A stretch of 64,000 nucleotides of DNA, from contig JABUMY010000020.1 of the NCBI GenBank assembly GCA_013327885.1, positions 1 to 64,000 of the forward strand, given 5' to 3'. This document shows, piece by piece, positions 28,387 to 52,961 of this stretch (positions within the stretch are counted from its first letter, which is position 1; each line of letters opens with the position of its first letter). A model generated the notes under the pieces. The model searched no databases and was not told where the DNA came from. It was given only the letters and a program-made list of their open reading frames with translations. The position numbers and the translations under genes are program-made. The stretch is from Flavisolibacter longurius. Its GTDB lineage: Bacteria; Bacteroidota; Bacteroidia; Chitinophagales; Chitinophagaceae.

Positions 28387-28389
28387 CTG

Positions 28390-29424: not shown

Positions 29425-29454
29425 AAGAATAGATTTTTTGCGTGAGAAATTTTT

Positions 29455-30933: not shown

Positions 30934-30962
30934 AATATTCGTTTGCTTTAATTAGGTGGAGA

Positions 30963-32105: not shown

Positions 32106-32111
32106 ACAAGG

Positions 32112-34685
32112 TTATTTTTTACTGTTTAGAAGGGTTTCCTGCGGACCGAGATAGCTGGGTTTTAAGCCGCCCAGGTCAACTACAATTTTTTGCAGTACCA
32201 CACCCGGACTGATCATCCAGTATTTTAGTGTGTGCCTGCCCGTTTTTTGGAGTGGAAAGCTTGCTTTTTTGATGATGATATTATTAGCCACCCAGGTATT
32301 CCAGATGCCGCTGATGCTGTTCTTGTCTTCTTTGTTGAGCGAAACTACCTGGGGCTCGCTGTCGTTAATGGAAACAGCCACCTGCAGCCCTTCCTCTTCG
32401 TTATGAAAATTAAGTGTGGGCGAAAAGTAAAGGTTAACTTCCGCCTTGCCCGTGCTCGATGTATAAAAATCATAGTCAACCCGAGGCGAGGGAGCTGATA
32501 ACCGTGTGGCAGTTGTAACCGGGAAAGTGCTAATGCCCGAACCTGTTTTGCCAATATCCGGAATAACTTTCCATTTGATGCCGGCCGCATTCACCGCTCT
32601 TGTCCAGTGTTCAGCTTCCATGGCAACCAAGCTGTCTTTCTCATAAAATACATTACCGGTAACCGTTTTCGGTACCCGTTGCAGGGCGGGTGGTGCAAGC
32701 GTAGGAGGAGCGACGGTCGTATCAAAAGCAACACCATCCTGAACCCTTGCCACAGCGGGCATTTTGTTGAACGGCGGTTGCTGCCAGTAGGTATAACCGA
32801 TATGCGTCTGGCTCATCATGTGGTTCCATTTGCCACCGCCAAGCTGGTGGTATTCCAGCGAGATAAGCGAATCTTTTACATACAGTTGTTCGGCAGCATC
32901 GGCATACGCATTGGCCGATAAGCTGCTGTCTTTTGCATGGGCATGGTTGTAGGCAATGTTCCAATACATTTCATGCAGGTTAGCCAAGGCTTTTATAGGA
33001 TGCAGCACCAACTGGAAGTAAGCATCCCTGTACGCTGCCGGCAACGCTGTATTGATCTTTTCGGCGCTTGCATGCAGGTCCTGCCATTCTTTTAGCACCC
33101 GGTCAGCTTCGTTGTAATGTTGAATGCTGTAGGTCTTTTGATCCAGCAGTTCCGGTTTTATGCGGGCACTGATTTGGGCATAAAGCCGCAGCAGGTCACC
33201 GATCGCTTTGCTTTGTGGTTTACCAAACTGCTTTTCCGCCCAGGCGGTATAATAGCTTCGCAGGTTGTCTTCGTTCCACTTTTCGGGGTTCCAGGCATAA
33301 TCCAGGAAAAACGATGTCGGCAGCTCCATGGGCTTGATGTCGCCAACGTTCACGATCCAGATCCTGTCCACACCATGGCGCCAGGCCAGGTGCATTTGCT
33401 CCCACACCCGGGAAAGGTTGTTTGTGTTCAGCCATTTGTAATTGCGCGGCCCGCCCACATAATCAAAATGGTAATAAATGCCATGTCCGCCGGATCGCTT
33501 GGGATCAGTCAGTTTCGGCAGGCGGCGGATATTGCCCCAGTTGTCATCGGCCAGCAGGAGGGTAACGTCGTCGGGTACCCGCATTCCTTTGTCGTAATAA
33601 TCCTGCACTTCTTTGTACAGGGCCCACAGCTGCGGCGTTTCGGTGGCGGGTTTGCCGGTAACATCGGCAATGATTTGCCGCTGGTCGGTTACAATGCGTT
33701 CCAGCAGGGCTGTTGCCGTTTCGCGGCTCATGGGCTCATCGCCATCGCCCCGCATACCTACGCTGACGATCTTTTCATTCGTAGCCCGCTGCATGCCATC
33801 TTTCCAAAACTGTTGCAGGGCCACTGCATTGCTGTCGTAATTCCATTTGCCTTTTCCATGCCGGCGCCATTCATCGTGGGCTCGCATGAGGGGTTCGTGG
33901 TGCGAGGTGCCGATCACCACGCCGTAGTTGTCGGCAGCCTGCCGGTTCTGCGGGTCATCGTCGTAAAAAGCATTGCCCCACATGGCCGGCCAGAGGTAGT
34001 TGCCTTTGAGGCGCAGAATGAGTTCAAATACTTTTTCGTAAAAATTGTGGTTAAACCCGCCAAATGTTGAGCGGCTCCAGTTGCTTAGCGCCGGCGCTTC
34101 GTCGTTGATAAAAATGCCGCGGTATTTTACCCGGGGTGAATCCACCAAAACAGCACGGGGCTGCACATAAAGCTGGTTGGCTTTTTTCGCCGGCACATCG
34201 GCCCACCAATGCCAGGGTGATACGCCCATCTGCTGCGAAAGTTCGAAGGTGCCGTAGGCCGCACCACGACGGTCGCTGCCCACGATCACAAGTGCCTGCG
34301 CCACGCCTTTGAACGGCGCATTTACCACCTGTATCCTGTAGCCTTCCCATTTGTTTTGGATGTCGGTTACCGACAATTTTTTTTCGGCTACCAGTTGCTG
34401 GATAAAACGCGATTTCTGCAGGTTGCCGATAAGGATAATGTTTTTTGCCAGGCCCAATTTTGTAGCCACCGGCAGCGTTTTTCCGCTTACGCTTGCCACG
34501 TCCTGTTGCAGGAGGTAGGAAGCGATGCGTACCAGTGAATCGTCGGCTGCATCATACACAATGGTAGGTGCACTGGCCGGAGAAAACAGGGTAAACGAAC
34601 CGGCAAGCTTTTTTGTGCTGGTGATGTTCTGCGCAAAAATTTGTTGCGTGCAAAGGAGTACAAACAATCCGAAGAATCTTTTCAT
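32112..34685 (-). CDS. GH115 alpha-glucuronidase
   Basis: An 857-residue exported enzyme of GH115, which removes 4-O-methyl-glucuronic acid side chains from xylan. A Sec signal peptide ends near residue 18 (CTQQIFAQ). The N-terminal alpha/beta domain, the barrel segments LILRLKGNYLWPAMWGNAFYDDDP, VVIGTSHHEPLMRAHDEW, VSVGMRGDGDEPM and LLADDNWGNIRRL, and the C-terminal jelly roll match the family in order and length. It directly follows the LacI gene in the operon. A weak half-site of the LacI operator overlaps its start codon. Confidence 0.92.
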   Translation of the reverse strand: MKRFFGLFVLLCTQQIFAQNITSTKKLAGSFTLFSPASAPTIVYDAADDSLVRIASYLLQQDVASVSGKTLPVATKLGLAKNIILIGNLQKSRFIQQLVAEKKLSVTDIQNKWEGYRIQVVNAPFKGVAQALVIVGSDRRGAAYGTFELSQQMGVSPWHWWADVPAKKANQLYVQPRAVLVDSPRVKYRGIFINDEAPALSNWSRSTFGGFNHNFYEKVFELILRLKGNYLWPAMWGNAFYDDDPQNRQAADNYGVVIGTSHHEPLMRAHDEWRRHGKGKWNYDSNAVALQQFWKDGMQRATNEKIVSVGMRGDGDEPMSRETATALLERIVTDQRQIIADVTGKPATETPQLWALYKEVQDYYDKGMRVPDDVTLLLADDNWGNIRRLPKLTDPKRSGGHGIYYHFDYVGGPRNYKWLNTNNLSRVWEQMHLAWRHGVDRIWIVNVGDIKPMELPTSFFLDYAWNPEKWNEDNLRSYYTAWAEKQFGKPQSKAIGDLLRLYAQISARIKPELLDQKTYSIQHYNEADRVLKEWQDLHASAEKINTALPAAYRDAYFQLVLHPIKALANLHEMYWNIAYNHAHAKDSSLSANAYADAAEQLYVKDSLISLEYHQLGGGKWNHMMSQTHIGYTYWQQPPFNKMPAVARVQDGVAFDTTVAPPTLAPPALQRVPKTVTGNVFYEKDSLVAMEAEHWTRAVNAAGIKWKVIPDIGKTGSGISTFPVTTATRLSAPSPRVDYDFYTSSTGKAEVNLYFSPTLNFHNEEEGLQVAVSINDSEPQVVSLNKEDKNSISGIWNTWVANNIIIKKASFPLQKTGRHTLKYWMISPGVVLQKIVVDLGGLKPSYLGPQETLLNSKK

Positions 34686-34748: not shown

Positions 34749-35780
34749 TTAGTCTTCTTTCCGTAGCGATGATTTTCGCACCACCAGTTCCGACCGTACA
34801 ATAATGGTATTGGTCTGCTGCAGGTTGCTGATACCTTTCAGGTGGTTGATCAGGTTGCGGGCCGCAATCTCACCCATATCAATACCCGGGTAATTGATGG
34901 TGGTCAGCGTAGGCTCTATCAGTTTGCCGATGGCATCGTTGTTAAAGCCAACAACCGCAATGTCAGCGGGAATAGAAACACCGGCTTCTTTTAAGGTGCG
35001 CATGCAAACGGCTGCTACAAAATCGTTGGTGCAAAACACACCGTCGGGCATGGGCTTCATGGCCATGATCCTATTGGCAGCATCAATACCCGCCTGTTCG
35101 CTCAGGTCACCTACCAGCAGCAGGCTTTCGTCATACGGCAGCTCGTTATCGTAAAGGGCATCTTTGTAGCCTTTAAAACGTTGTGCGTAAACGTTACGGG
35201 CCAGGCTGGAGGTAACATGCACAATGCGTTTGCAGCCCTGGTTGATGAGGTGTTCGGTGGCAATGTAGCCACACTTGGTGTTGTCGATCACCACTACCGT
35301 TTTGGAACCGTCCTGCTCCACGCGGTCAAAGAATATCACCGGCACGCCTTTTTCGTAAAAAGGCTGAAAGTGGTCGAGGTTTTTGGTGTCAAAGGAAAGG
35401 GAGGCGATCAATCCGTCCACCCGTTTTTGAAACAGGTTGGCCGCGTTGGCCGCTTCTTTTGTATAGCTTTCCGAGGAGTGGGCAATGATTAGGTCATAGC
35501 CCGCTTCAGTAGTCACCTTTTCAATGCCGGCGAGCACGGAGGTAATAAAGTTACTGTTCAGCTCATGCACCATTACGCCAATAGTGAGGGTTTGCTTTTG
35601 CCGAAGGTTACGGGCAAAATGGTTGGTGCGGTAACCCAGTTGCTCCACCATCTCAAAGATCTTTTTCTTTGTTTTTTTGGAGATGCCGGGATGGTCGCTC
35701 AGGCCGCGGCTGACCGTTGCCGGCGAAATCTTGAGCTTTTTGGCAATGTCGTAAATGGTGACTTCCTTGTCTTCAGGCAT
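34749..35780 (-). CDS. LacI-family transcriptional regulator
   Basis: A 343-residue regulator. Residues 7-55 contain the LacI helix-turn-helix and hinge: VTIYDIAKKLKISPATVSRGLSDHPGISKKTKKKI, then GYRTNHFARNLRQ. The remainder is the periplasmic-binding-protein-like effector domain, with TIGVMVHELNSNF, VDGLIASLS, VIDNTKCGYIATEHLINQGC, VFCTNDFVAAVCMRTLKEAG and VVGFNNDAIGKLIEPTLTTI. It heads the six-gene xylan operon and probably senses a xylan-derived sugar. A strong LacI-type operator lies 58 bases upstream of its start, between it and the divergent GH10 gene. Confidence 0.95.
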   Translation of the reverse strand: MPEDKEVTIYDIAKKLKISPATVSRGLSDHPGISKKTKKKIFEMVEQLGYRTNHFARNLRQKQTLTIGVMVHELNSNFITSVLAGIEKVTTEAGYDLIIAHSSESYTKEAANAANLFQKRVDGLIASLSFDTKNLDHFQPFYEKGVPVIFFDRVEQDGSKTVVVIDNTKCGYIATEHLINQGCKRIVHVTSSLARNVYAQRFKGYKDALYDNELPYDESLLLVGDLSEQAGIDAANRIMAMKPMPDGVFCTNDFVAAVCMRTLKEAGVSIPADIAVVGFNNDAIGKLIEPTLTTINYPGIDMGEIAARNLINHLKGISNLQQTNTIIVRSELVVRKSSLRKED

Positions 35781-35808
35781 ACAATCGTTTACGTGTTGGA
35801 TGATATAG

Positions 35809-35816
35809 CTAAAATA
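35809..35816 (-). promoter_or_regulatory. Candidate -7 box TATTTTAG for the LacI operon
   Basis: The minus-strand TATTTTAG matches the Bacteroidota form TAnnTTnG. It is 28 bases upstream of the ATG at 35780 and exactly 24 bases from the 13-base core TATGCAACCGATT (plus-strand 35841-35853). The same box and spacing of 25 bases recur before the AraC gene. Confidence 0.5.
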
Positions 35817-35837
35817 GATTTTTTTTCAAAAAAATTA

Positions 35838-35851
35838 TGTAATCGGTTGCA
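35838..35851. promoter_or_regulatory. LacI-type operator TGTAATCGGTTGCA
   Basis: A 14-base imperfect palindrome (half-sites TGTAATC and TGCAACC) fitting TGnAAnCGnTTnCA, the LacI/CcpA-type operator pattern. It sits in the divergent region between the LacI gene and the GH10 gene, overlapping the probable -33 regions of both. The regulator is likely its own repressor, so one site could control the whole xylan set. A 13-base core is identical at 46689-46701. Confidence 0.65.
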
Positions 35852-35876
35852 TAAATTATTTTTCTGCCTAAATTCG
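35847..35876 (+). promoter_or_regulatory. Candidate promoter for the CBM-GH10 gene
   Basis: A TTG at 35847-35849 (inside the operator) and TAAATTCG at 35869-35876 are separated by 19 bases, which is the spacing expected between Bacteroidota -33 (TTG/TTTG) and -7 (TAnnTTnG) elements. The operator would cover the -33 element, so binding of LacI should repress. Confidence 0.45.
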
Positions 35877-36139
35877 GTTCTGAAAGAACAGTTGTTACAA
35901 CGGCTTGCTGAATGAAAATGGCCCCAAGGGCTGCGTGAACAGCGGTGACAGGTAAAGGTACAGGACACCGGTTCACAAAACGATTGGCTTTGGCAAAGCA
36001 ATGCACGAACAGCTTTCGCTCATTTTTCATCCCTAAAACAGCAGTCAGCATTTTGTCCGCTTATTCCACTTCTGCCGAAGTTTCGTTGGGCGAACCCTTT
36101 CGTTCCGTAACAGGACAGCGGGTTGCCTGCAAAAGCCGT

Positions 36140-37771
36140 TTGCGTTTACCGCTGTGGCTCCTGGCTGCAACCATTTGCCTGGTTGCCTGTAAAAAAGAAG
36201 CACCTGCCCCGGCACCACCGCCAGCACCCCAACCGCCGCCGGTAGCCCAGCCCGACCTGACCACGCCCCTGAAAGCCGAAGCTGACTTTCCCATTGGCGT
36301 AGCCGTTTCGTATACCGGCATGATGAACGATGCCCGCTACCAGGAAATCGTCAAACGCGACTTTGATGCCGTGACCTTTGAATACAACATGAAACACGGC
36401 GCCATTGTGGGTGCCAGCGGTACACTTGATTTCAGCCAGGCCGATGCGCTGGTGGACAAGTCTACGGCCGCCGGTGTGGCTGTTTTTGGGCATACCCTTG
36501 TGTGGCATCAAAACAATAATGGCGACTACCTACGTTCGCTGGGAACGACATCGGCTGCCAGCGGTCCAGACCTCCTGGCTGACCTTAACGGCAAGTTTGA
36601 GAACAGCGGCAGCGGCACAACACCGGCCACAATTTTCCAGAGCTGGTTTGGCTCTACCGGTGGCAACGGCGCCGCTACGTTTGAAAGAGAAACCAGCAGC
36701 CCGCATCAGGGCAGCGGGGCGTTGAAAATAACCGTAACCACTCCCGGCACCAATCCCTGGGATGTACAATATTTAAATGGCGACTGGAAGCCAACGGCAG
36801 GAAAAACCTATCAAATAAAATTCTGGGTAAAATCAAACGGCAGCGGAAGCTTCCGGGCCATCAACCAAACGCCCAATGCGGGCAGTCCGCATTTTACGCA
36901 AATGACGGTAACGCCAACTGCAACCTGGAGCGAAGTCGTATGGAATTACACAGCACCGGCCGGCGCCATCCAGTTTGGCTTTCATTTTCCTGCGGCCGGT
37001 ACGTTTTGGATCGATGCCGTTACCATTCAGGAAACATCCCAAACGCCGGTAAGCCCAACGGCGGGTGCACAGAAGCTGGATGCGGTGATGAAGGAATGGA
37101 TACAAACCGTGGTGAACCGGTATAAAAGTAAGGTTCGTGCATGGGATGTGGTGAACGAGCCGTTCACCGATGGAACGCCCGTGATTCGCAATGGCAGCAA
37201 TTCAACCGGCGATACCTATTACTGGGCGCAGTTCCTGGGCCGGGATTACATTGCCAAAGCTTTTCGGTATGCAAGGGAGGCCGATGCCACCGCCGATCTT
37301 TACCTCAATGATTATAACCTGGAATACAGCCCGGCCAAACTCGACTCCATCGTAGCCCTGGCCAACGAGTTAAAGGCAGCCGGCGTACCCATCACCGGTG
37401 TGGGCACACAAATGCATATTTCCACCACGGATTCGTACAGCAATATCGACCAGATGATGCGCAAGCTGGCTTCTACGGGGTTGAAGGTGCGGGTTTCGGA
37501 ACTGGATGTAAAAGCCGGTAATGGCGGTGCGGCCGGAACGCCACCCGGTGCAGCGGCCCTTGCCAGCCAGGCAGCCATGTACAAACACGTGGTGAGTTCT
37601 TACCTGAAAAACGTGCCGGCGGCACAACGGGGAGGCATAACCGTATGGGGTGTTACCGACAATACCAGTTGGCTGTACAATAACGGCGCACAGTATCCTT
37701 TGCTTTATGATAAAGATTATAACCGCAAGCCGGCCTACGGTTCGTTCCTGACGGCCTTGCGGGAGAAATAG
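36140..37771 (+). CDS. Endo-1,4-beta-xylanase, GH10 lipoprotein with inserted CBM
   Basis: An outer-surface-type GH10 xylanase. The frame opens at GTG 35945 but contains no ATG before the lipoprotein signal. A TTG at 36140 gives MRLPLWLLAATICLVAC, a correct signal with the lipobox LVAC, and is chosen here (543 residues). A Pro/Ala-rich linker precedes the barrel (FPIGVAVSYTGMM). After GHTLVWHQNNN the barrel is interrupted by a CBM4/9-like jelly roll of about 165 residues, then resumes with WDVVNEPF (general acid, about residue 340) and VSELDVK (nucleophile, about residue 454). A similar insert is known in a Bacteroides xylanase. It is divergent from LacI across the operator. Confidence 0.85.
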   Translation: MRLPLWLLAATICLVACKKEAPAPAPPPAPQPPPVAQPDLTTPLKAEADFPIGVAVSYTGMMNDARYQEIVKRDFDAVTFEYNMKHGAIVGASGTLDFSQADALVDKSTAAGVAVFGHTLVWHQNNNGDYLRSLGTTSAASGPDLLADLNGKFENSGSGTTPATIFQSWFGSTGGNGAATFERETSSPHQGSGALKITVTTPGTNPWDVQYLNGDWKPTAGKTYQIKFWVKSNGSGSFRAINQTPNAGSPHFTQMTVTPTATWSEVVWNYTAPAGAIQFGFHFPAAGTFWIDAVTIQETSQTPVSPTAGAQKLDAVMKEWIQTVVNRYKSKVRAWDVVNEPFTDGTPVIRNGSNSTGDTYYWAQFLGRDYIAKAFRYAREADATADLYLNDYNLEYSPAKLDSIVALANELKAAGVPITGVGTQMHISTTDSYSNIDQMMRKLASTGLKVRVSELDVKAGNGGAAGTPPGAAALASQAAMYKHVVSSYLKNVPAAQRGGITVWGVTDNTSWLYNNGAQYPLLYDKDYNRKPAYGSFLTALREK

Positions 37772-37838
37772 TGCCGGCTCTTGCCGGGAAAGCTGTCAAG
37801 AGAAGTACATTGCTTTTAGTAGTTTAGATGTTTTATAT

Positions 37839-39350
37839 ATGTTATTACTCGGAATCGATCTAGGAACCTCGTCTATCAAAGCGTCGGTAGTGGATGCCGC
37901 CACCGGCCGCTGCGTAGCTTCGGCACAGTATCCCGAAACGGAAGCCGATATTATAGCACCGCAACCCGGCTGGGCAGAGCAAAGTCCCGACCTCTGGTGG
38001 GAGCATACCAAGCAGGCCATTTTAAAATGCAACAGCAGCGGAACCTACGATCCCAAAGACATTGCGGCCATTGGCATTGCCTACCAGATGCATGGTTTGG
38101 TGCTGGTGGACAAAGATCAGGAAGTGCTGCGCAATGCCATTATCTGGTGCGACGGTCGTGCCGTGGGTATTGGTGAAGACGCTTTTGATGCCATTGGCGA
38201 GGAGCGTTGCCTTTCGCACCTGCTCAACTCACCCGGCAATTTTACCGCGGCTAAGCTAGCCTGGGTAAAAGAGGCGGAGCCGCAGCTTTACGAACGTATC
38301 GACAAAGTATTGTTGCCCGGTGATTTTATCAGCATGAAGCTGACCGGGGAGATCACCACCACGATGTCGGCGCTGTCAGAAGGCATCTTCTGGGACTTTG
38401 CCAACAACACTGTTTCCCGTGATGTCATGGATTATTTCGGGTTTGACGAAAGTCTGCTTCCCGACGTCCATCCCTTGTTCGCCCCGCATGGTGGCGTTAT
38501 GGCCGATGTGGCCGAACGGCTGTCATTAACGCCGGGCATTCCCGTTACCTACAAGGCCGGCGATCAGCCCAACAATGCGTTTTCGCTGAATGTGCTGAAC
38601 CCGGGTGAAGTGGCTTCTACAGCCGGAACCTCGGGAGTTATTTACGGCGTAAGCGATAACCTGCGCTATGATAAGCAATCCCGCATCAACTCGTTTGCCC
38701 ACGTGAATTATACGCCGGAGCAACCGCGCATTGGCGTGCTGCTTTGCATCAACGGTACCGGCATCTTCAACCGCTGGATACGCAATGCCGTGGGTGCCCA
38801 GCACAGCTACGAAAGTTTGAATACCGAAGCGGCCCAGGTACCGGCCGGCGCCAACGGCCTGCTGGCCCTTCCCTTTGGTAATGGTGCCGAACGCATGCTG
38901 AACAACCGCACCATTGGTGCGCATTTTCATAACCTTGATTTTAACCTGCACACCGCGGCACACCTGGTACGGGCAGCGCATGAAGGCATTGCCTACTCGT
39001 TTCGCTACGGGCTGGACATTATGCGGGAGAACGGCATGAGCCCCAGCATTATCCGGGCAGGCAGGGCCAATATGTTTTTAAGCGAAGTGTTCACCCAGTC
39101 ATTTGTCAACGCCACCGGCGTGCCGGTAGAATTGTACCAATCCGATGGCAGCATAGGGGCAGCCCTAGGTGCCGGCGTTGGGGCAAAGATCTTCAGCGAA
39201 CCGAAGGAAGCTTTTGCTGGCAGAAAGCCGCTGACCCTTGTAAAGCCAACGCAAACGGCCACCTACGATGCGCTTTACAGCACCTGGAAAGACCTGCTGA
39301 AAACGCAACTGCAAAAAACAACCGCATACAAACAAACCGTAAACGTATAA
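37839..39350 (+). CDS. xylB: Xylulokinase
   Basis: Phosphorylates D-xylulose to xylulose 5-phosphate with ATP. A 503-residue FGGY-family kinase: phosphate-1 motif [17 protein letters not shown] at the N-terminus, [33 protein letters not shown], the catalytic Asp region [25 protein letters not shown], and the C-terminal adenosine region [13 protein letters not shown]. It is the first of two genes with xylA, 19 bases apart, following the GH10 gene on the same strand. Confidence 0.95.
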
Positions 39351-39369
39351 CCAGCATAAAACAAAAACA

Positions 39370-40695
39370 ATGGAAGCAATTGCAACAAGAACATTTTTTA
39401 AAAATATCCCGCAGATCAAATACGAAGGTCTGGAAACCGACAATCCTTTTGCCTATCGTTGGTACGACGAGAACAAAGTGGTGGCCGGCAAAACCATGAA
39501 AGAGCATTTTAAGTTTGCCTGCGCCTACTGGCACTCTTTTACCGGAACAGGCAGCGATCCCTTTGGCGGACCAACGCATCTTTTTCCCTGGGACGAAAGC
39601 GGCGATGCCCTGGAGCGGGCCCGTGCCAAAGCCGATGCGGCCTTTGAATTCATTGCGAAGCTTGGCCTGCCGTATTACTGCTTTCACGATGTGGACGTGG
39701 TAGAGTATACCGATGACATTGCCGAAAACGATCGTCGCCTGCAGGCCATGACCGACTACCTGAAGCAGAAGCAGCAGGAAACCGGCATCAAGTTGCTCTG
39801 GGGCACGGCCAACCTTTTTTCGCACAAGCGCTACATGAACGGTGCTGCCACCAACCCCGATTTTCATGTGCTTACGCACGGTGCCGCACAAGTGAAAGCG
39901 GCCCTGGATGCTACCATTGCACTGGGTGGTGAGAACTATGTTTTCTGGGGTGGAAGGGAAGGCTATATGTCGCTCCTGAACACCAACATGAAGCGGGAAA
40001 AAGAACACATGGCCCGTTTCCTGCACACGGCAAAAGATTATGCCCGCAAGCAGGGCTTTACCGGTACCTTCTTTATCGAGCCCAAGCCGGCCGAACCTTC
40101 GAAGCACCAGTATGATTTTGACGTGGAAACCGTAGTAGGCTTCCTGCGCCAGTACGATCTGCTGAACGATTTTAAGATCAACATTGAAGTGAACCATGCC
40201 ACGTTGGCCGGTCATACGTTCACACACGAACTGCAGGCAGCCGCCGATACCGGCGTACTGGGTTCTATCGACGCCAACCGCGGTGATTACCAGAACGGCT
40301 GGGATACCGACCAGTTTCCCAACAACATCAACGAACTGGCCGAAGCGATGCTGGTGATCCTGGAAGCCGGTGGCCTGCAGGGTGGTGGTGTGAATTTCGA
40401 CGCCAAGATCCGTCGCAACTCCACCGATCCCGCAGACCTGTTTCATGCGCACATCGGTGGCATCGACACCTTTGCAAGAGCCTTGGTTGTTGCCGATGCG
40501 GTGCTGAGCAAATCCGAATACAAAGCCTTCCGCCAGGAGCGTTATGCTTCATTCGACAGCGGCGAAGGAAAAGCCTTTGAAGAAGGCAAGCTTTCACTGG
40601 AAGACCTGCGCCAGTACGCCATCAGCCATGGTGAGCCCGAAGTACGCAGTGGTCGCCAGGAGTGGCTCGAGAACATCATCAATCGCTATATCTGA
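39370..40695 (+). CDS. xylA: Xylose isomerase
   Basis: Converts D-xylose to D-xylulose using two divalent metal ions. A 441-residue class II enzyme. Visible are the substrate-binding FHDVDVVEY (catalytic His106, Asp109), [38 protein letters not shown], the metal-binding [18 protein letters not shown] and [33 protein letters not shown] and [13 protein letters not shown]. Length and order match. It pairs with xylB; an intrinsic terminator follows 10 bases after the stop. Confidence 0.97.
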
Positions 40696-40705
40696 TCCTC
40701 CTCAA

Positions 40706-40740
40706 CCTTACTGTCCAGCACAGGGCAGTAAGGTTTTTTT
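40706..40740 (+). terminator. Intrinsic terminator after xylA
   Basis: Stem CCTTACTG at 40706-40713 pairs with CAGTAAGG at 40726-40733, followed directly by seven T's. The inner loop can also pair weakly. It separates xylBA from the downstream symporter gene. Confidence 0.85.
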
Positions 40741-40803
40741 CTCGTTATATAGTTGCGAAGACTTATTTTGTATCCCAAACCTATTTATTCCTAAAGAACG
40801 CTT

Positions 40804-42477
40804 ATGTCGCAATTGCACTTGAACGACTACCTCGTCTTCATTGTTTACTTTATTGTGGTAGCCGGCTATGGATATTATGTCTACCAGAAAAAGAAAAAAG
40901 CAACCGTCTCCGCCTCTCACGATTATTTCCTGGCCGAGGGTTCGCTGACCTGGTGGGCCATTGGCGCTTCGCTGATTGCCTCCAACATTTCGGCGGAGCA
41001 ATTCATTGGCATGAGCGGCAGCGGTTTTAAAATGGGATTGGCCATTGCCACCTACGAATGGATGGCTGCCGCCACGTTAATGATCGTTGCCATTTTCTTT
41101 ATTCCTGTTTACCTGCGCAACAAGATCTACACCATGCCGCAGTTCCTCAATGAACGGTACAACGGTACGGTGGCCATGATCATGGCGGTCTTCTGGCTAC
41201 TGCTTTACGTAGTGGTGAACCTTACTTCCATTCTTTACCTCGGGGCCTTGGCCATCAACAGCATTTCCGGTATCAACATTACGCTATGTATGTACCTGCT
41301 GGCTGTCTTTGCCATCTTTATCACACTGGGTGGGATGAAGGTGATCGGGTACACGGATGTGATACAGGTTTTTTTCCTTATCCTCGGTGGCTTGGTAACT
41401 ACCTACCTGGCCCTCAACCTTGTTTCGGAAAAGTTTGGCACTGCCGGAACGGTCAATGGTTTTAAGATCATGACCCAGCAGGCCGAAAGTCATTTCCATA
41501 TGATTTTCGATCAGTCGAACGAAAACTACATGGACCTGCCCGGCCTGACCGTGCTGGTGGGCGGTATGTGGATCGTGAACCTGAATTACTGGGGCTGTAA
41601 CCAATACATTACCCAGCGTGCCTTGGGTGCCGATCTGAAAACGGCCCGTTATGGTATCCTGTTCGCGGCTTTTTTAAAATTGTTGATGCCGGTGATCGTT
41701 GTGCTTCCTGGTATTGCGGCCTTTGTGCTGCACCAGCAAGGCAGCTTTCAAACAGAACTGTTGCAGGACGGTGAGATCAATCCCGACCGGGCTTACCCCG
41801 TTTTGTTGAACCTCTTGCCGGTAGGCTTGAAAGGACTGGCGTTTGCTGCGTTAACGGCTGCCATCGTGGCTTCGCTGGCGGGCAAGGCAAACAGTATCGC
41901 TACCATCTTTACCTTGGATATTTATAAAAAGAAGATCGCACCGGAAGCATCGGAGAACAAAATGGTTTCTATCGGTAAGATCACGGTGATCGTTTCCATG
42001 ATCCTTGCCGTGATGATCGCTCCCATGCTGGGCATCGATAAAAAAGGAGGCTTCCAGTACATCCAGGAATACACCGGCTTTGTATCGCCGGGAATTTTTG
42101 CCATGTTCATCCTGGGCTTTTTCTGGAAAAAAACAACCTCCAACGCAGCGCTTTTTGCCACCGTTGGCGGCTTTGCGTTTTCCATCTTTTTCAAGTTCCT
42201 GCCCAACTTCATGGACCTGTCGTTTTTAGAACGCTTTGGTTTTGCCAAAGCCAATGCAGCGGGAGTTTATGAAATTCCCTTCCTCGACCGCATGGGGATC
42301 GTGTTTGTTATTTCCATCCTGGGTATGGTCCTGATCAGCCTGTGGGAAAACAGCCGCGGTGTTCAGCCCAAAGGCCTGGTAGTGGACAAACAAATGTTCC
42401 GCATGTCGCCAGGATTTGCCGTGGGTGCCCTGTTGATCTGTGGTATCCTGGTAGCGCTGTATTCAATTTACTGGTAA
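40804..42477 (+). CDS. Sodium/sugar symporter (SSS family)
   Basis: A 557-residue transporter of the solute:sodium symporter family, with about 14 membrane segments. The N-terminal DYLVFIVYFIVVAGYGYYVYQKK, the GSLTWWAIGASLIASNISAEQFIGMSGSGFK sodium-site region, NLNYWGCNQYITQRALGA, and LAFAALTAAIVASLAGKANSIATIFTLDIYKK are typical of SGLT-like transporters. It probably imports a monosaccharide, most simply xylose given xylBA next door. Its own hairpin terminator follows. Confidence 0.92.
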   Translation: MSQLHLNDYLVFIVYFIVVAGYGYYVYQKKKKATVSASHDYFLAEGSLTWWAIGASLIASNISAEQFIGMSGSGFKMGLAIATYEWMAAATLMIVAIFFIPVYLRNKIYTMPQFLNERYNGTVAMIMAVFWLLLYVVVNLTSILYLGALAINSISGINITLCMYLLAVFAIFITLGGMKVIGYTDVIQVFFLILGGLVTTYLALNLVSEKFGTAGTVNGFKIMTQQAESHFHMIFDQSNENYMDLPGLTVLVGGMWIVNLNYWGCNQYITQRALGADLKTARYGILFAAFLKLLMPVIVVLPGIAAFVLHQQGSFQTELLQDGEINPDRAYPVLLNLLPVGLKGLAFAALTAAIVASLAGKANSIATIFTLDIYKKKIAPEASENKMVSIGKITVIVSMILAVMIAPMLGIDKKGGFQYIQEYTGFVSPGIFAMFILGFFWKKTTSNAALFATVGGFAFSIFFKFLPNFMDLSFLERFGFAKANAAGVYEIPFLDRMGIVFVISILGMVLISLWENSRGVQPKGLVVDKQMFRMSPGFAVGALLICGILVALYSIYW

Positions 42478-42498
42478 TAGAAAATTCGAACCATTCAT

Positions 42499-42533
42499 AA
42501 AATACCGGCTTGTTTACAGGCCGGTATTTTTTT
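42499..42533 (+). terminator. Intrinsic terminator after the sugar symporter
   Basis: The stem AATACCGGC at 42501-42509 pairs with GCCGGTATT at 42520-42528 and is followed by a T-run to 42533. It lies 21 bases past the stop codon. Confidence 0.88.
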
Positions 42534-42743
42534 GGGGAGATATGGTTTCCCGCAGAATAAATAATCCGTAACAGTTCCGGATTTATCTGCTTTTTGCAAC
42601 GTTAATTATGTGTGATAAGAAGACGGACGATTCTCGTGCATTTGATTTCCCTTCCTGGTTAAAAATGTACAAGCATTGGTTGAACAAATAGGGGTTTGTC
42701 GCTTTGGGTTGCCTTAACTTGCCACTACCATATTCCTCTTCAA

Positions 42744-44153
42744 ATGATCAAACGATTTCTTTCTGCCGCTTTGTTAGTTACGGTTTGTCTTTCTGCCTTT
42801 GCTGATATACGCCTGCCGGCTATCATCGGCGACCACATGGTATTGCAAGGGGCCACCAACGTTACCTTCTGGGGTTGGTGCGATCCCGGTGAGAAAATTT
42901 CCATCCGCACCGGTTGGGATACCACCACTTATCGCACAACAGGAAACTCCGGCGCTACCTGGAAGCTGGTTTTGCCCACCCCAAAAGCCGGCGGTCCTTA
43001 TACCATCACTATCAGCGGGAACAATACCCTTGTGATTCAGGATGTGCTGGTAGGCGAAGTTTGGCTGTGCAGCGGGCAAAGCAACATGGAATGGGCACCG
43101 GCCTGGGGATTGCCCTACGAAAAAGAAGTGGCCGAAGCAACGGACAGGAACATACGTTTTTTTGCCGTGCCGCGAACAACAGCGCAGTATCCGCAGGACG
43201 ACGTAAAAGCAAGATGGGTAGTGTGCACCCCGGAGGAAATGAAAAAGTTCAGCGCAGTTGGGTATTTTTTTGGGAAAGCCATAGCAGAAAACAGGGCTTT
43301 GCCGGTTGGGCTTATCGGCTCGAGCTGGGGTGGTACTCCCGCTGAAGCCTGGACGCCGGATTCAATTGTTCGAAACGACCCGGCGCTGTCGGCGGCCGCG
43401 CAAAAACGAAAGCCTTCCAACGGCTGGCCCATTGTGGCCGGGGCAACCTATAACGCCATGGTATACCCGCTACAACAGTATGCCATTGCCGGCGCCATCT
43501 GGTACCAGGGCGAAAGCAATGTGGGTACCTGGGACACCTACCAGCCTTTGATGGTAAACATGATCGAATCCTGGCGCCGGGGTTTTGGAAAAGCCTTCCC
43601 GTTTTACCTGGTGCAGATCGCACCCTTTGCCGGTTACGGAAGCTATCCTTCTTCCGCTCTCCTCCGGGAAGCGCAAACAAAAATTGCCAGCCATCCCAAC
43701 ACGGGCATGGTGGTTATTCACGACCTGGTGGACAATATCAACGACATTCATCCCAAGTTAAAAAAAGAAGTAGGGCAGCGGCTGGCGGCCCTGGCGTTGA
43801 CAAAAACCTATGGGGTGAACGGACTGCAGGCAAGCTATCCGCAGTATAGCAGCATGGCGGTGGAAGGCGACAAGATAAATGTTGCCTTTACCAATGCCGA
43901 AGCGGGATTGACGGCCAGGGGAGGAGAGCTCACGGAGTTTTTTATTGCCGGTGAAGACAAGGTCTTTCATCCCGCAAAAGCTGTGATCAAAGGAACATCG
44001 GTAGTGGTATCGGCCAAAGGCGTGAAAAAGCCGGTTGCGGTTCGGTTTGGCTTTAGCAATGTGGCCATGCCTAACCTGTTCAGCAAAGACGGCCTGCCGG
44101 TAGGTATTTTTCGAACCGACAACTGGGATGTGACTGACAGCACTGCAAAATAA
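42744..44153 (+). CDS. Exported sialate O-acetylesterase-like SGNH esterase
   Basis: A 469-residue protein from ATG 42744, with a signal peptide ending near residue 20 (CLSAFA). The upstream in-frame start at 42696 would precede the signal and is rejected. The order GDHMVLQ, VLVGEVWLCSGQSNMEW (Ser113), GSSWGGTPAEAW, IWYQGESNVGT and DLVDNINDIHPKLKK (Asp/His) matches the acetylesterase family. It resembles the N-terminal half of the fused esterase at 25711 but lacks the jelly roll and the NodB domain. It probably deacetylates xylan or mannan. Confidence 0.9.
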   Translation: MIKRFLSAALLVTVCLSAFADIRLPAIIGDHMVLQGATNVTFWGWCDPGEKISIRTGWDTTTYRTTGNSGATWKLVLPTPKAGGPYTITISGNNTLVIQDVLVGEVWLCSGQSNMEWAPAWGLPYEKEVAEATDRNIRFFAVPRTTAQYPQDDVKARWVVCTPEEMKKFSAVGYFFGKAIAENRALPVGLIGSSWGGTPAEAWTPDSIVRNDPALSAAAQKRKPSNGWPIVAGATYNAMVYPLQQYAIAGAIWYQGESNVGTWDTYQPLMVNMIESWRRGFGKAFPFYLVQIAPFAGYGSYPSSALLREAQTKIASHPNTGMVVIHDLVDNINDIHPKLKKEVGQRLAALALTKTYGVNGLQASYPQYSSMAVEGDKINVAFTNAEAGLTARGGELTEFFIAGEDKVFHPAKAVIKGTSVVVSAKGVKKPVAVRFGFSNVAMPNLFSKDGLPVGIFRTDNWDVTDSTAK

Positions 44154-44258
44154 TGCTGATCGTATTTTTCGAAGCCTGTAAGTAGTCATGCCTGCAAAGG
44201 CGGAAACAGGTGCAAATGATCAGGGCTTTTCGCTACTTTCCATAAAACGGCCAGGCAA

Positions 44259-45623
44259 ATGAATACAAACGCTTTTTTGATTGGTGGGTTTCTCCTTGTA
44301 TCGGGCATCATCGACGCCAATCTGGCCGCTGCGCAAACGGAGAGCCGCCTGGCCATTGCAAGGGCGATGGAGGCCTCCCTGCAAACAGAGTTGCTGAACA
44401 AATGGTACCCGCAGTCGGTCGACAGCCTGCATGGCGGTTTTCTCAGCACGTTCACCTATGATTTCAAACCAACGGGCCCGCAGGATAAGTTTATTGTAAC
44501 ACAGGCCCGCCATACCTGGACAACGGCCAAAGCTGCACTGCTCTACCCGGAAAGATCATATTATCTCGCCAGTTCCAAATGGGGCTTCCGGTTTTTGCAG
44601 GAGGTGCTATGGGACAAAACCTACGGTGGTTTTTATAATCTTGTTACACGCAATGGAACAGTAAAACCTGCAGGCAAAGCAGACAAAGAAGCGTATGGAA
44701 ATGCCTTTGGTATTTACGCACTGGCCGCCCACTACGAAGCATCCCGCGATACGGCAGCATTGAACATGGCCAAGAAAGCATTTTACTGGCTGGAAGAGCA
44801 CAGTCATGACCCGGTTCATGGGGGCTATTTTCAACACCTGCAAAGGGATGGCACGCCTGTGCGGCGAGATGCCACGGTTCCCTCCACGTCGGACCTGGGT
44901 TACAAAGACCAGAATTCTTCCATCCATTTACTGGAAGCCTTTACGGAGCTATACGGCGTTTGGAAAGATTCCCTGCTACGGGAACGCCTGCAGGAAATGC
45001 TTTTTCTTATCCGCGACAAGATCACCACGCCGCAGGGCTACCTGACGCTTTTTTTTACGCCGGACTGGAAACCTATCACATTTCGGGATTCCACCAAAGA
45101 AGCGATTCTGCGTCACAAGGGCCTCGATCATGTTTCCTTTGGCCACGATGTAGAAACCGCTTACCTGATGCTGGAAGCCTCTCATGCCCTGGGACTGAAA
45201 AACGATACCCTTACCATTACCGTTGCCAAACGGATGGTGGACCATGCCCTGCGTAACGGCTGGGATACTGCCGTTGGTGGCTTTTACAACGAAGGGTATT
45301 ATTTCAAGGGAGAGAAAGGTATTTCCATTCTTTTTGACAGTAAGAACTGGTGGGCACAGGCCGAAGGGTTAAATACCCTGCTCCTGATGGCAGACCATTT
45401 TCCGGATGATCCAATGCGGTATGAAGAAAAGTTCAGGAAGCTGTGGGCCTATTGCCAAACCTACCTGATCGATCACGTGCATGGCGATTGGTTTGAAGAA
45501 GGATTGGATAAGGAGCCGCATCGCAAGACTACCCTGAAAGGCCATATTTGGAAGGGCACTTATCACCATTTCAGAGCGCTGGCGAATTGTATCAAACGAC
45601 TGAGATCGAAGGGAGGAGAATAA
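44259..45623 (+). CDS. Exported AGE-family epimerase-like protein
   Basis: A 454-residue (alpha/alpha)6-barrel protein of the N-acylglucosamine/cellobiose 2-epimerase family with a signal peptide (ANLAAAQ, about residue 26). Barrel motifs: VDSLHGGFLS, QARHTWTTAKAAL, KEAYGNAFGIYALA, DHVSFGHDVETAYLMLEA with the catalytic His, NWWAQAEGLN, and GHIWKGTYHHFRAL. An export signal is odd because the family usually acts in the cytoplasm. It may be a periplasmic mannobiose 2-epimerase or a different isomerase. It is adjacent to the esterase and upstream of the AraC gene, which is on the other strand. Confidence 0.82.
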   Translation: MNTNAFLIGGFLLVSGIIDANLAAAQTESRLAIARAMEASLQTELLNKWYPQSVDSLHGGFLSTFTYDFKPTGPQDKFIVTQARHTWTTAKAALLYPERSYYLASSKWGFRFLQEVLWDKTYGGFYNLVTRNGTVKPAGKADKEAYGNAFGIYALAAHYEASRDTAALNMAKKAFYWLEEHSHDPVHGGYFQHLQRDGTPVRRDATVPSTSDLGYKDQNSSIHLLEAFTELYGVWKDSLLRERLQEMLFLIRDKITTPQGYLTLFFTPDWKPITFRDSTKEAILRHKGLDHVSFGHDVETAYLMLEASHALGLKNDTLTITVAKRMVDHALRNGWDTAVGGFYNEGYYFKGEKGISILFDSKNWWAQAEGLNTLLLMADHFPDDPMRYEEKFRKLWAYCQTYLIDHVHGDWFEEGLDKEPHRKTTLKGHIWKGTYHHFRALANCIKRLRSKGGE

Positions 45624-45736
45624 GATATTGTGATATTGGTAATTCGATCATCCGTTCCGTAAAGTCCGAAGCAGTAAGAAGTATGCAGTAAGAAGTAGGC
45701 AGTAGGCAGTCAGCAATATTTCAATATCCCAATATC
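45624..45736. repeat. Intergenic inverted word repeats (GATATTG) around an AGTAGGC tract
   Basis: GATATTGTGATATTG at 45624-45638, immediately after the epimerase stop codon, is mirrored by the reverse complement at 45722-45736 (14 of 15 bases). Between them lies a degenerate GCAGTAAGAAGTA / AGTAGGC tract (45671-45713) related to the array at the left end of the window. The interval separates two convergent genes. Confidence 0.7.
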
Positions 45737-45747
45737 CGCCTTTCCTG

Positions 45748-46632
45748 TCACACAAACGCCCTGATCCCCGACGCATTGTACTGTTCTCGGAATTCCTTTG
45801 GGGTGCACTGCTTTTTCTTTTTGAACACCCGGTTAAAATTGGACATGTTGTTGAACCCGCAGCGGTAGGCAATCTCGCTGACGCTTTGCGTCGTATCAAT
45901 TAGCATCCGCGAGGCATGTCCCAGCCTGATCTCGTTCAGCGTTTCCACGAAAGTTTTCCCGGTGCGTAGCTTGAAGAACCGGCTGAACGCCACCTCCGAC
46001 ATCGAAACCTGTTTGGCCGCTTCGCTCAGGGTGATTTCTTTGTCGAAGTTTTTGTTCAGAAACCCCATCACATTGTCGATGCGCCGGCTGTTGTAGGTGA
46101 TGGAATCCGCAGCCTGGAAAGAGATGTCTGAAAGAATGCGCATGTTGGCCGAAGTGGAAAGAATATGAAGAATGGACAACAATTCAAGCACCGATTCAAA
46201 CCCCGATTTGTTTACGAGGTTAAGCACCCGCGGCATAATGGCTTCGGTCACTTCTTTTGAAAAAAGAATGCCTCGTAACGATTGCTGGAACATGTTCCGG
46301 ATAAGGCTCATCTGGTTGCGCTGCAAAAATTTTTCATCCAGCAGGTCGCGGTGAAACTGCAGGGTGATCTCGTGGATCTCGCTGCTTTTGCATTTGTGTG
46401 TAAACCAGCCGTGTTGCAGGTTGGGACCAACCAAAACCAGTTCCAGGTCGTCTATGGTTTCAAAATGTCCCCCAATCACCCGCTTGGCACCTTTTGCATG
46501 CTGAATAAAATTCAGCTCAAACTCTTCGTGGTAATGAAGCGGAAAGGAGAACTCGGATTTGGTCCGGGCAAGAATAGTAAAACAATCGCTTTGGGTAAGC
46601 GGCGTGATTTCCCGCAGGAGATTTTCTTTCAT
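45748..46632 (-). CDS. AraC-family transcriptional regulator
   Basis: A 294-residue regulator from the ATG at 46632; a longer frame to 46845 would run back across the operator and promoter and is rejected. The N-terminal cupin part has FSFPLHYHEEFELNFIQHAKGAKRVIGGH, a sugar-sensing arrangement. The C-terminal two helix-turn-helix motifs are ITLSEAAKQVSMSEVAFSRFFKLRTGKTF and QSVSEIAYRCGFNNMSNFNRVFKKKKQCTPKEFRE. It is divergent from susC and probably activates the mannan locus. A LacI-type operator lies in its promoter region. Confidence 0.93.
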   Translation of the reverse strand: MKENLLREITPLTQSDCFTILARTKSEFSFPLHYHEEFELNFIQHAKGAKRVIGGHFETIDDLELVLVGPNLQHGWFTHKCKSSEIHEITLQFHRDLLDEKFLQRNQMSLIRNMFQQSLRGILFSKEVTEAIMPRVLNLVNKSGFESVLELLSILHILSTSANMRILSDISFQAADSITYNSRRIDNVMGFLNKNFDKEITLSEAAKQVSMSEVAFSRFFKLRTGKTFVETLNEIRLGHASRMLIDTTQSVSEIAYRCGFNNMSNFNRVFKKKKQCTPKEFREQYNASGIRAFV

Positions 46633-46655
46633 GTAGCAAACACTTAAGGACGCTT

Positions 46656-46663
46656 CTAAAATA
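46656..46663 (-). promoter_or_regulatory. Candidate -7 box TATTTTAG for the AraC gene
   Basis: The minus-strand TATTTTAG is identical to the box before the LacI gene and lies 23 bases before the ATG at 46632. The 13-base operator core TATGCAACCGATT is 25 bases upstream of it (24 in the LacI case), so the two promoter layouts are superimposable. Confidence 0.5.
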
Positions 46664-46685
46664 AGCAATTGAGTTAAGATAGTAC

Positions 46686-46699
46686 CACAATCGGTTGCA
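46686..46699. promoter_or_regulatory. LacI-type operator in the AraC/susC intergenic region
   Basis: CACAATCGGTTGCA shares 11 of 14 bases with the operator at 35838, and the 13-base core AATCGGTTGCATA (46689-46701) is identical. Position relative to the AraC -7 box matches that of the LacI gene within one base. It suggests that the xylan LacI protein also represses the AraC activator. Confidence 0.6.
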
Positions 46700-46831
46700 T
46701 ATTTCCTTTTTTTCTTAGAACCCTTACCTGTATTGTGTTTCAGCCTTTCGGCCAAATATTGCGTTTGCAAAACATGTAAAAAAATACATCTCTTTGTTAA
46801 GAAAGTATCACATGCGAATAGGTAATAAAAA

Positions 46832-46839
46832 TATTTTTG
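46832..46839 (+). promoter_or_regulatory. Candidate -7 promoter box (TATTTTTG) for susC
   Basis: A perfect match to TAnnTTTG, ending 19 bases before the susC start codon at 46859. A TTTG at 46793-46796 is too far upstream to serve as a normal -33 element, which fits an activator-dependent promoter. Confidence 0.45.
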
Positions 46840-46858: not shown

Positions 46859-49800
46859 ATGAGAAAATGCCTGTGCCTTAGGGTGCATCTGCTTTTGCTA
46901 TTTGCGCTCCTCTCAACTCTCGCTTTCGCTCAAGGACGAACTCTTACCGGAACCATTACAGACGACAAACAAGCCCCGCTCGCCGGCGCTACCGTTTCCG
47001 TAAAAGGAACAACGGCGGTTACCACCAGCGATGTGGCAGGCAAGTTCTCTATTAATGTTCCGCAGGGCGGCCGTACGCTTGTCATTTCTTTTGTTGGCAT
47101 GCAGCCACAGGAAGTGACCATTGGTACCGGCAACGTGGTGAATGTTTCCATGCAGGCCAGTGCAGGTGCCATGGCCGATGTGGTGGTGGTTGGTTATGGC
47201 CGTGCCAGGAGGGCAAACCTTACTACGGCACAAACCTCCGTTTCCGCCAAGGAAATTGAACGCACAGTCAACACCACGGTTGAGCAGGCGATCCAGGGAC
47301 GTGCCGCCGGTGTGTATGTAACGCAAAACTCCGGTCAGCCGGGTGGCGGCATCTCGGTCAACATCCGTGGTGTGAGCTCCATTACCGGTAATACCGAACC
47401 GTTGTATGTTATCGACGGTGTGCAGTTGCAGGGCGGTGGAACCACCAATTCCTCCAACCCCCTGGCTTCACTCAACCCTTCTGATATCGAAGACATACAG
47501 ATCTTACAGGGGCCTTCCGCAACGGCTATTTATGGTTCCCGCGCCACCAATGGCGTTATCATGGTAACTACCAAGCGTGGTAAAGCAGGACAAGCTGTAT
47601 TTAACTACAATATTCAGTACAATGTACAAACCCCGCCCAAGGCCTTGCCGGTGATGAACCTGCCGCAATATGCTGCCATGCGCAAAGAGTTTCATGCCCT
47701 GGCCGGTGGCACCACGCCGCAGGAGTTTTTAGATCCCTCCATCCTTGGTCCTGGTACCAACTGGCAGGACGAGCTGTTTAACAACGCAGCCATGCAAAAA
47801 CATCAGTTGAGCCTGAGCGGCGGGAGTGCCAATACTACTTATTATATGTCGGGTGAATACCTGAAGCAGGATGGCGTGGCCATTGGTTCCGGTTTCGACC
47901 GCTATGGCTTCCGGGTGAATTTGGAAAACAAGCCGCGGGAGTGGGTAACGTTGGGTGCCAACCTTAGCTTTAACCAAACCAACGAAAAGCTCACTACCAG
48001 CTCGGAAAGCGTTATTGCTGATGCCCTGCAGATCACACCACAGATCCCGGTGAAAAACCTCAACGGCTCCTGGGGCGGTGGGGATGACGTGAATGGTGCC
48101 ACGCAATTTGCACCGGTGAACCCCATTGCCATTGCCAGCCTGCGCACCAATACCAACCGCAGAAGGCAGTTCTGGGGTGGGTTGAATCTTGCCCTGAATC
48201 TCACCAAAGGCCTTACTTTCCGCACTTCCTTCAACACCGATATCAACTACTCCAATTCACTGTACTTTAATCCAACTTACCGCATTGGCTGGGCCGTGAA
48301 CACATCGGCTTCCCTGACCAATAACGTGAACATGAGTACGTACTGGAACTGGAACCAGTTGCTGGAATACACAAAGCAGCTGGGCAAGCATAATTTCACC
48401 TTGATGGCCAGCCATGAGTCGCAGGAATCAAAATGGCAGAACATTTCGGCCAGCCGCTCGGGCTTTCTTACCAACGATGTATTTGACCTGAGTGCCGGTG
48501 CTGCACCCGGAACAAACGGTGGCGGTTCAGGTCCCTGGGCCATGGAATCTTACCTGGGAAGGATCAACTACAACTACGACAACCGTTACCTCCTCACCGG
48601 TACCTACCGCAGGGATGGTTCAGCTGTTTTCGGTCCGGAGAACAGGTGGGGTGCTTTCCCTTCCGTGTCAGCCGCCTGGCGTGTTTCACGGGAGAGCTTC
48701 TTCAATGTTCCTTTTATCAGTGAATTAAAGCTGCGCTACGAAACCGGTATCACCGGTAATCAGGGTGGCGGAACCGGCATCTACTCACCGCTGAACTCCG
48801 GTATCTCTGACCTGGGAAGCGGCTTTTTGCCTGGCCGTTATGGCAACCCTGCCCTGCAGTGGGAAGAAACAAAAACAGATAACATCGGTTTGAATCTTGG
48901 CTTGCTGAACAACCGCATTACCATTGAAGCTGATTATTATGTAAAAAATTCGAGCAACCTGTTGATGGATAATCCCCTGCCTTTTTACATGGGTACAAGC
49001 GGACAAGGCTCAGTGGCCAACCCGCGGGTAAATATTGGTGAATTGCAAACAAAGGGCTGGAGCCTTACCATCAATACTACCAACATCAGCAAAAAAGATT
49101 TCCGCTGGGAAACAAACCTGAACCTCTCAAGCTTTGAAACAGAAGTAGAGAAGTTCTACAACGAATCGGCCGTGGTTGACCGTACCTCTACCTGGTACGA
49201 CAACTGGTCTCAAACATGGACGCAACGTGCCGCCGTTGGACTGGCGCCCTGGTTGTTCCGTGGTTATATCTATGAAGGATTGTTTCAGTCGGTGGAAGAG
49301 ATCAACAGCAGCCCTGTTCGGGTTGATGGTAACGGCAACCGTTATCCTACCGATCCAACCGGTGTTTGGGTAGGCGATGTGAAATACAAAGACGTCAATG
49401 GCGATGGCAGGATTGACTCCGGTGATGAAACCTATATCGGCAATCCCTGGCCAAAGCTGTTTGGTGGTTTTACCAACAATTTCTCCTACAAAGGATTTGA
49501 CCTGAGCATCCTCGTTACCGGCACATCCGGCAACGATATCTATAACATGCTGGCCATGGTCAACTCTAAAATGGGCCGTTTTTATACCAGCCGTAACCTG
49601 ATGACGGACGTGATGAATTATGCACGTTTGGAAGACCAGAATTCAAAGGTTGTTATTCTCAACCCAGAGACCAATGTTCCCCGGATCACCGGCTCACAGA
49701 TTCCCAATGACAACAACTACAATGTGATCAGCAGCCGTTGGGTGGAAGATGGTTCTTTTATCCGGTTGAAGAATGTGACGCTTTCCTACAACCTTCCGAA

Positions 49801-50014: not shown

Positions 50015-50024
50015 AAATCAGCAA

Positions 50025-51743: not shown

Positions 51744-51779
51744 GCCGAAACCTATTCTTTCCAACTTATTGCAAGTGAT

Positions 51780-52934: not shown

Positions 52935-52961
52935 AATTCATTACGACTACAACTGAAAAGA

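Follow-up and report, generated by a model that had tools for sequence, protein, structure and literature searches.

What raises the question at this locus is a word that occurs twice. In the first 64,000 nucleotides of contig JABUMY010000020.1 of the soil bacterium Flavisolibacter longurius (hereafter the window), the same short sequence stands before a lacI gene flanked by xylan and xylose genes and before an araC gene that adjoins a mannan-type cluster. Could the repressor of the first system also hold the activator of the second? The preliminary description of this DNA had proposed that it does, pointing to an identical operator core and promoter geometry. We find before araC a predicted LacI operator, here called O3, that is conserved in four Flavisolibacter genomes, and we think it probable that this LacI holds down its own gene, the two xylan operons and araC, so that a xylan signal would act on the mannan activator as a permissive gate.

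The site before araC

The elements on which the argument turns are these.

34749–35780, minus strand: lacI, encoding a LacI-family repressor of 343 amino acids with a helix-turn-helix (HTH) and a sugar-binding domain (Pfam LacI, Peripla_BP_3, Peripla_BP_1).
35838–35851, unstranded: O1, a 14-bp palindrome, TGTAATCGGTTGCA, between lacI and the divergent xylan/xylose operon; the predicted main LacI operator.
45748–46632, minus strand: araC, encoding an AraC-family regulator of 294 amino acids (Pfam HTH_18, HTH_AraC).
46686–46699, unstranded: O3, a predicted LacI-type operator, TGCAACCGATTGTG on the minus strand, beginning 67 bp before araC and belonging to a 17-mer invariant in four genomes.

The claim of a LacI-type site before araC is borne out by comparison of the regions upstream of orthologues. 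In the 260 bp before araC of the present genome (G000) and of three other Flavisolibacter genomes (G006, G009 and G007), aligned sequences of 55–75% pairwise identity, no invariant stretch exceeds the 17-mer TGCAACCGATTGTGGTA; second in length is one of 13 bases at the start of susC. An araC orthologue is found in 6 of 18 genomes of the genus, and O3 is present in all four that also have a LacI orthologue and in neither of the two that have none: G013, whose only LacI belongs to a paralogue clade, and G014, whose best LacI reaches 36% identity. G007 keeps O3 although its araC and lacI lie on separate contigs; six open frames inspected there, over 7.7 kb upstream of araC, include no xylan gene, in a fragmented assembly (~250 contigs) that leaves linkage possible. 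Across 394 sampled genomes of the family, the exact 17-mer occurs in four, every time upstream of araC. One mismatch adds 20 places in the family, 16 of which were examined: two (L092 and L093) precede a lacI homologue, and for the remaining 14 the ~3 kb inspected contains no lacI and no araC. The O3 14-mer is also found upstream of lacI-like genes in another genus (g6; L035, L092 and L093).

Read as an operator, the 14-mer at 46686 (CACAATCGGTTGCA) has two mismatches to TGnAAnCGnTTnCA, which the preliminary description had left unmentioned; it matches the LacI consensus at 12 of 14 positions and differs from O1 at 3 of 14. The identity that had been claimed for the operator core holds for the 13-mer, but the araC site as a whole is not an identical operator: the last two bases of its 14-mer are off consensus and common to an AraC-type box. 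A weight matrix built from 16 sites, none of them from G000, gives the araC site a score of 15.1 that is not fully independent, because one matrix site equals the araC 14-mer; the case for O3 therefore rests on conservation and not on the score.

The core itself, AATCGGTTGCATA, lies at 35841–35853 and 46689–46701, positions verified by a window search that found no other copy without mismatch. Base composition predicts 0.0019 exact copies per 64 kb, against these two, and 0.17 per genome, against three in the 5.75 Mb (52 contigs) scanned. Allowing one mismatch gives 8 matches in the genome, where the reversed control gives 4, and with two the window holds 4 against 1.62 expected, so that the exact copies alone are unusual. 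The third of them, at C49:88859, ~450 bp upstream of a gene read by eye as phosphofructokinase, was rejected as an operator or regulon member: within the genus it is common to the nearest relative, G006, only, and it borders on an intergenic repeat that is dispersed. For this repeat (L003, ~1410–1501, before the phosphofructokinase-like gene on C49 of G000), part of the query was matched in 16 of 18 genomes of the genus, more than once in eight, and an Rfam scan of L003, of L039 and of the window gave no match.

The preliminary description had overlooked that the araC site overlaps, by two bases, a direct repeat of AraC type; this repeat is degenerate, and TATTTTAG lies in its second half. Two such candidate boxes lie in the spacer between araC and susC.

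46673–46687, minus strand: first half-site of the AraC-type box nearer araC, matching ATACTNTNTTA except at one base; bases 46686–46687 are common with O3.
46652–46664, minus strand: second half-site, 21 bp on, containing TATTTTAG (46656–46663); it corresponds to a weaker T-rich block at +22 to +30 in the box profile.
46775–46809, minus strand: susC-proximal AraC-type box of two half-sites 21 bp apart, with an exact ATACTNTNTTA in all four O3 genomes.

The two shared bases are the last two of the LacI 14-mer, both off consensus there, and are bases −1 and −2 of the AraC-type box. In the 300 bp before 26 araC orthologues, exact ATACTNTNTTA occurs 30 times on the araC strand (in 22 of the 26) and never on the opposite strand, against a mean of 0.2 and a maximum of 2 in 100 shuffles; the seed was picked by eye from the same sequences, which flatters both the shuffle contrast and the strand bias. 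A separate sequence, L056, outside this count of 26, has one AraC box and no LacI-type site. The araC-proximal box is degenerate, with one mismatch in the window and two in G006, G009 and G007. Escherichia coli AraC uses direct half-sites spaced 21 bp, with an autoregulatory site before araC; the present candidate boxes resemble those in spacing and placement, and differ from them in sequence and in the predicted LacI operator that overlaps the first half-site.

Predicted operators and promoter-like boxes at lacI

How firmly can O1 be assigned to LacI? The protein combines an N-terminal HTH with a periplasmic-binding-like effector domain (PF00356, PF13377 and PF00532, all above cut-offs). O1 fits TGnAAnCGnTTnCA exactly, as had been claimed for the 14-base site at 35838, and is the one exact fit in the window; the full palindrome TGYAAYCGRTTRCA has a single occurrence in the genome, at 35838. 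The consensus is of the type TGCAACCGATTGCA, an even palindrome with a central CG. Usable upstream DNA was available for 63 distinct lacI genes of at least 50% identity; in 36 of them TGYAAYCGRTTRYR occurs at −40 to −140, exactly in 32 and otherwise with one mismatch, and because the motif recurs at this distance before so many relatives O1 is predicted to be a LacI operator, very probably that of LacI 34749–35780. Within Flavisolibacter, O1 precedes lacI in 6 of 7 orthologues. In relatives, O1-type sites also lie upstream of genes for FGGY kinases. G001 has, in addition, the sequence of its lacI O1 repeated exactly (TGCAACCGATTACA; L160:1447–1460, C35) on a different contig from lacI, ~60 bp upstream of a gene for a GH67 alpha-glucuronidase, a placement that fits a xylan regulon.

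A wider regulon could not be called in the genome from TGYAAYCGRTTRYR alone, which is exact at four places against 2.7 expected by composition: two at the present locus, C3:165997, and C11:418180, where it falls within an open frame. On C3 of G000, at 165941–166010 (L180, ~7942–8011), an O1-like and an O2-like site lie exactly 58 bp apart without lacI or a recognisable remnant of it, ~490 bp upstream of a SusC/SusD cluster and with a hybrid two-component system (HTCS) gene on the opposite side; the pair pattern did not find this arrangement in other members of the genus, at a noise level that leaves chance possible. Tandem pairs of two divergent lacI copies were seen in G001, G019, G043 and G050 (L118, L122, L124 and L127).

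Around O1 lie a predicted second operator, which the preliminary description had overlooked, and two promoter-like boxes; a further such box stands before susC.

35780–35793, unstranded: O2, a putative second operator of degenerate sequence (minus strand: CGTAAACGATTGTA), which lies 58 bp from O1 and overlaps the start codon of lacI.
35809–35816, minus strand: TATTTTAG, a candidate −7 box for transcription of lacI.
35869–35876, plus strand: TAAATTCG, a candidate −7 box for the divergent operon that departs from TAnnTTTG at one base.
46832–46839, plus strand: TATTTTTG, candidate −7 element of susC; it fits TAnnTTTG, which is kept in four aligned sequences.

O2, where YGTAAACGATTGTA overlaps the start codon, is predicted to be the weaker of the two lacI operators. 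The strict O1–O2 pair occurs at 20 places in 18 of the 394 family genomes, against one match for the reversed pattern, and all 20 lie just upstream of a lacI homologue (52–100% identity); for a few of them the aligned lacI start is 70–117 nt further on, and O2 need not cover the start there. A looser pattern gave 13 places in the genus against 5 for the reversed control, seven before lacI and six not, and this noise is why only the strict pattern was counted as clean.

The flavobacterial −7 consensus, as given in the part of the source used here, is TAnnTTTG (PMC9723704). In 36 O1-anchored sequences, TAnnTT(T/A)G lies 21 nt after O1 on the lacI side in 12 and 22 nt after it in 3, and 17 nt from O1 on the divergent strand in 14, a pattern that the window copy TAAATTCG misses by one base. 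From this fixed layout O1 appears to sit between two divergent promoters, and the proposal that LacI controls both itself and the divergent GH10 operon is supported by a conserved predicted operator between two promoter-like boxes. The minus-strand TATTTTAG described 24 or 25 bases past the 13-mer, ahead of the lacI and araC starts, was verified at both places (35809–35816 and 46656–46663; starts at 35780 and 46632), and O3 lies 22 nt from the box before araC, O1 21 nt from that before lacI. As a shared promoter element, however, the box fares unevenly: before lacI it is a good −7 candidate, whereas before araC it lies inside the second AraC half-site, is not clearly kept in G009 and G007, and may be a −7 box, an AraC half-site, or both.

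The proposed gate and its alternatives

We posit that LacI 34749–35780 acts locally, repressing its own gene and the genes for using xylan and xylose. Bound at O1, with −7-like boxes at 17 and 21 nt, it would shut off both lacI with its xylanase operon and the divergent operon for GH10 xylanase, kinase, isomerase and symporter; O2, over the lacI start codon, would strengthen autorepression. In Flavisolibacter the same protein would also bind O3, two bases into the AraC-type box, and there either block araC transcription or keep AraC off its own box. A xylan-derived sugar would release LacI, whereupon AraC with its own ligand would activate the mannan cluster through the box before susC. With no effector clue taken from solved relatives of LacI, gene content points to xylose or a xylo-oligosaccharide as the likely effector. 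More tentatively, and with real doubt, O3 and the AraC box might be seen as one composite switch at which LacI and AraC compete, a xylan signal licensing the mannan activator ahead of mannan; such an AND gate between two hemicellulose clusters would have evolved in Flavisolibacter when an existing site of AraC autoregulation acquired a LacI operator. The degeneracy of the araC-proximal box in the four genomes lowers the odds of this version.

Several observations weigh against LacI control of araC through O3. The site is confined to four genomes, two of which, G000 and G006, are close, and it is absent from all 21 araC orthologues outside the genus, although a LacI belonging to the same wide clade is present in at least 12 of the genomes concerned. 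It is off consensus at both bases of one end, which belong to the AraC-type box, so AraC may account for some of its conservation. The box TATTTTAG upstream of araC keeps 7 of 8 bases in G006 and is not clearly kept in G009 or G007. At lacI itself, 27 of the 63 relatives lack the motif at −40 to −140 (these include members of tandem pairs and genes with a site nearer the start: L017 at −22, L018 at −16, L021 at −25), and G008 has LacI but no O1 upstream of lacI, with a near-consensus site before its FGGY kinase gene. Lastly, the nearest paralogue, C33:293577, has an almost identical HTH that shares the stretch SPATVSR, and O3 differs from its operator, TGAAACCGATTGCA, at 3 of 14 bases, the same number as from O1. 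LacI control reaching the mannan activator, as first proposed, thus finds support in a conserved site, and that site is seen in four Flavisolibacter species only; its presence there and in none of the 21 orthologues outside makes the predicted lacI–araC link a genus-level addition. In another genus, G053 carries a different perfect LacI-type palindrome, TGCAAACGATTGCA, at −77 before the araC of a mannan-type cluster (L214:18898–18911, C21; araC at 18966), with no LacI homologue in the 34 kb examined; given this palindrome, LacI-type sites before araC may arise repeatedly.

An alternative concerns which LacI would read O3. The genome has 10 LacI matches (E <= 0.001), and matches occur in 59 of the 118 genomes searched, this one included. 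Paralogue C33:293577 adjoins GH67, SusC and glucuronyl esterase genes, and a tree separates its clade (96/90) from the orthologues of LacI 34749. Its HTH, an operator with the same O1–O2 layout, the equal distances to O3, and the occurrence of TGCAACCGATTGTG before paralogue-clade lacI genes in genus g6 (L035, L092 and L093) would all suit a gate read by this second xylan repressor, or by both proteins. We judge this unlikely: G009 keeps O3 with non-orthologous LacI proteins that do not exceed 36% among the matches listed (the remaining five of eight are weaker still), and G013, with a paralogue-clade LacI and araC, has no O3. These patterns favour LacI 34749 as the binder; the equal distances, together with TGCAACCGATTGTG before paralogue-clade genes, leave room for cross-binding.

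The position and origin of O3 invite other readings. Since O3 lies within the shared araC–susC spacer, LacI bound there might leave araC transcription alone and act mainly on susC, for example through bridging or by obstructing AraC at the susC promoter; we find this rather improbable, as O3 adjoins the araC-proximal box, whereas ~97 bp separate it from the susC-proximal one, and its distance to the −7-like box before araC resembles that in the lacI promoter. O3 abuts and overlaps an AraC-type box and might for that matter be an extension of the AraC-binding site, unrelated to LacI. This is decidedly improbable: most araC orthologues have AraC boxes without the TGCAACCGATTG part, the susC-proximal box in the same spacer lacks TGCAACCGATTG too, and 12 of the 14 bases of O3 agree with the LacI consensus. 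Chance sharing of a short word is hardly credible. It could appeal to one-mismatch matches of the 13-mer just twice the control and to TGYAAYCGRTTRYR at four places against 2.7 expected, but the three exact 13-mers exceed their expectation of 0.17, and the site is kept in four diverged araC upstream regions, an alignment that already disfavours chance.

Flanking clusters, known systems and significance

Three gene groups would come under the proposed control of LacI 34749 and AraC.

25711–34685, minus strand: xylan operon downstream of lacI, with GH115, GH10, an MFS sugar transporter, GH43 and a SASA esterase/polysaccharide deacetylase (Pfam; same strand, gaps of at most 64 bp).
35945–42477, plus strand: divergent genes for a GH10 xylanase with CBM_4_9, an FGGY kinase, a xylose-isomerase-like protein and an SSF symporter (Pfam).
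46859–63856, plus strand: mannan/glucomannan-type cluster, with SusC, SusD, SGBP-B, a TIG protein, GH26, SSF, GH130, an epimerase, a PD40 protein and GH9 (Pfam).

The divergent genes are followed by a SASA esterase and an epimerase, to 45623. The GH10 frame 35945–37771 opens with GTG, and a signal-peptide-like stretch (by eye) at ~residues 65–80 indicates that the true start is probably further downstream. Judged by its enzymes, the substrate of the third cluster would be mannan or glucomannan; its SGBP-B belongs to a xyloglucan-binding Pfam family. In G006 (L112:4729–9448, compared with 46859–51743) araC is 93% and the downstream mannan genes are 74–86% identical, but SusC is 39% and SusD 30%, which looks like an exchange of the outer-membrane pair.

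According to the part of the family survey drawn on here (PMC4052901), most LacI-family sites are palindromes of even length centred on CG, autoregulation holds for 72% of the regulators studied, and >75% of sites lie 30–140 bp before the start. The present system resembles such local sugar regulons in its even palindrome with central CG, in its predicted autoregulation, in the 30–140 bp placement and in the adjacent sugar-use genes; it departs from them in a predicted second operator over the start codon and in a site before the activator gene of another cluster, and its Chitinophagaceae clade is not named in that part of the survey. Among LacI regulators, Clostridium thermocellum GlyR2, which is said to respond to mannobiose and is predicted to act on the enzyme genes, is likewise tied to both mannanase and xylanase genes; unlike the present case it belongs to a Gram-positive, with no AraC step in the part of the review drawn on (PMC10766802). 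Bacteroides XylR (BT0791) also controls xylose use in Bacteroidota and belongs to the NrtR family (PMC3878776), whereas the protein at 34749–35780 is by Pfam a member of the LacI family and not of NrtR; the regulator table of that source, in the part used, has LacI members for uronic acids only (KdgR, UxaR, UxmR, UxuR). With HTCS/SusR-type control the locus shares an AraC-type DNA-binding domain, here predicted to act on a SusC/SusD cluster, and candidate direct-repeat sites, but here the AraC protein stands alone and its own gene is apparently under a LacI repressor (PMC3878776, PMC10766802). A limited literature search, in the portions of the sources it covered, found no description of a LacI repressor placed ahead of an AraC activator that serves a different polysaccharide cluster.

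The plant-polysaccharide clusters of Bacteroidota are usually pictured as switched separately, each by its own sensor. A conserved, predicted repressor site before the activator of another cluster offers a concrete example, open to testing, in which the signal of one hemicellulose would gate the use of another, and O3 illustrates how such cross-cluster wiring may be gained in evolution. A predicted operator motif is now available for a LacI group spread through Chitinophagaceae, and the sites described here suggest that, in these Flavisolibacter species, one plant sugar signal helps to open both the xylan and the mannan toolkits.

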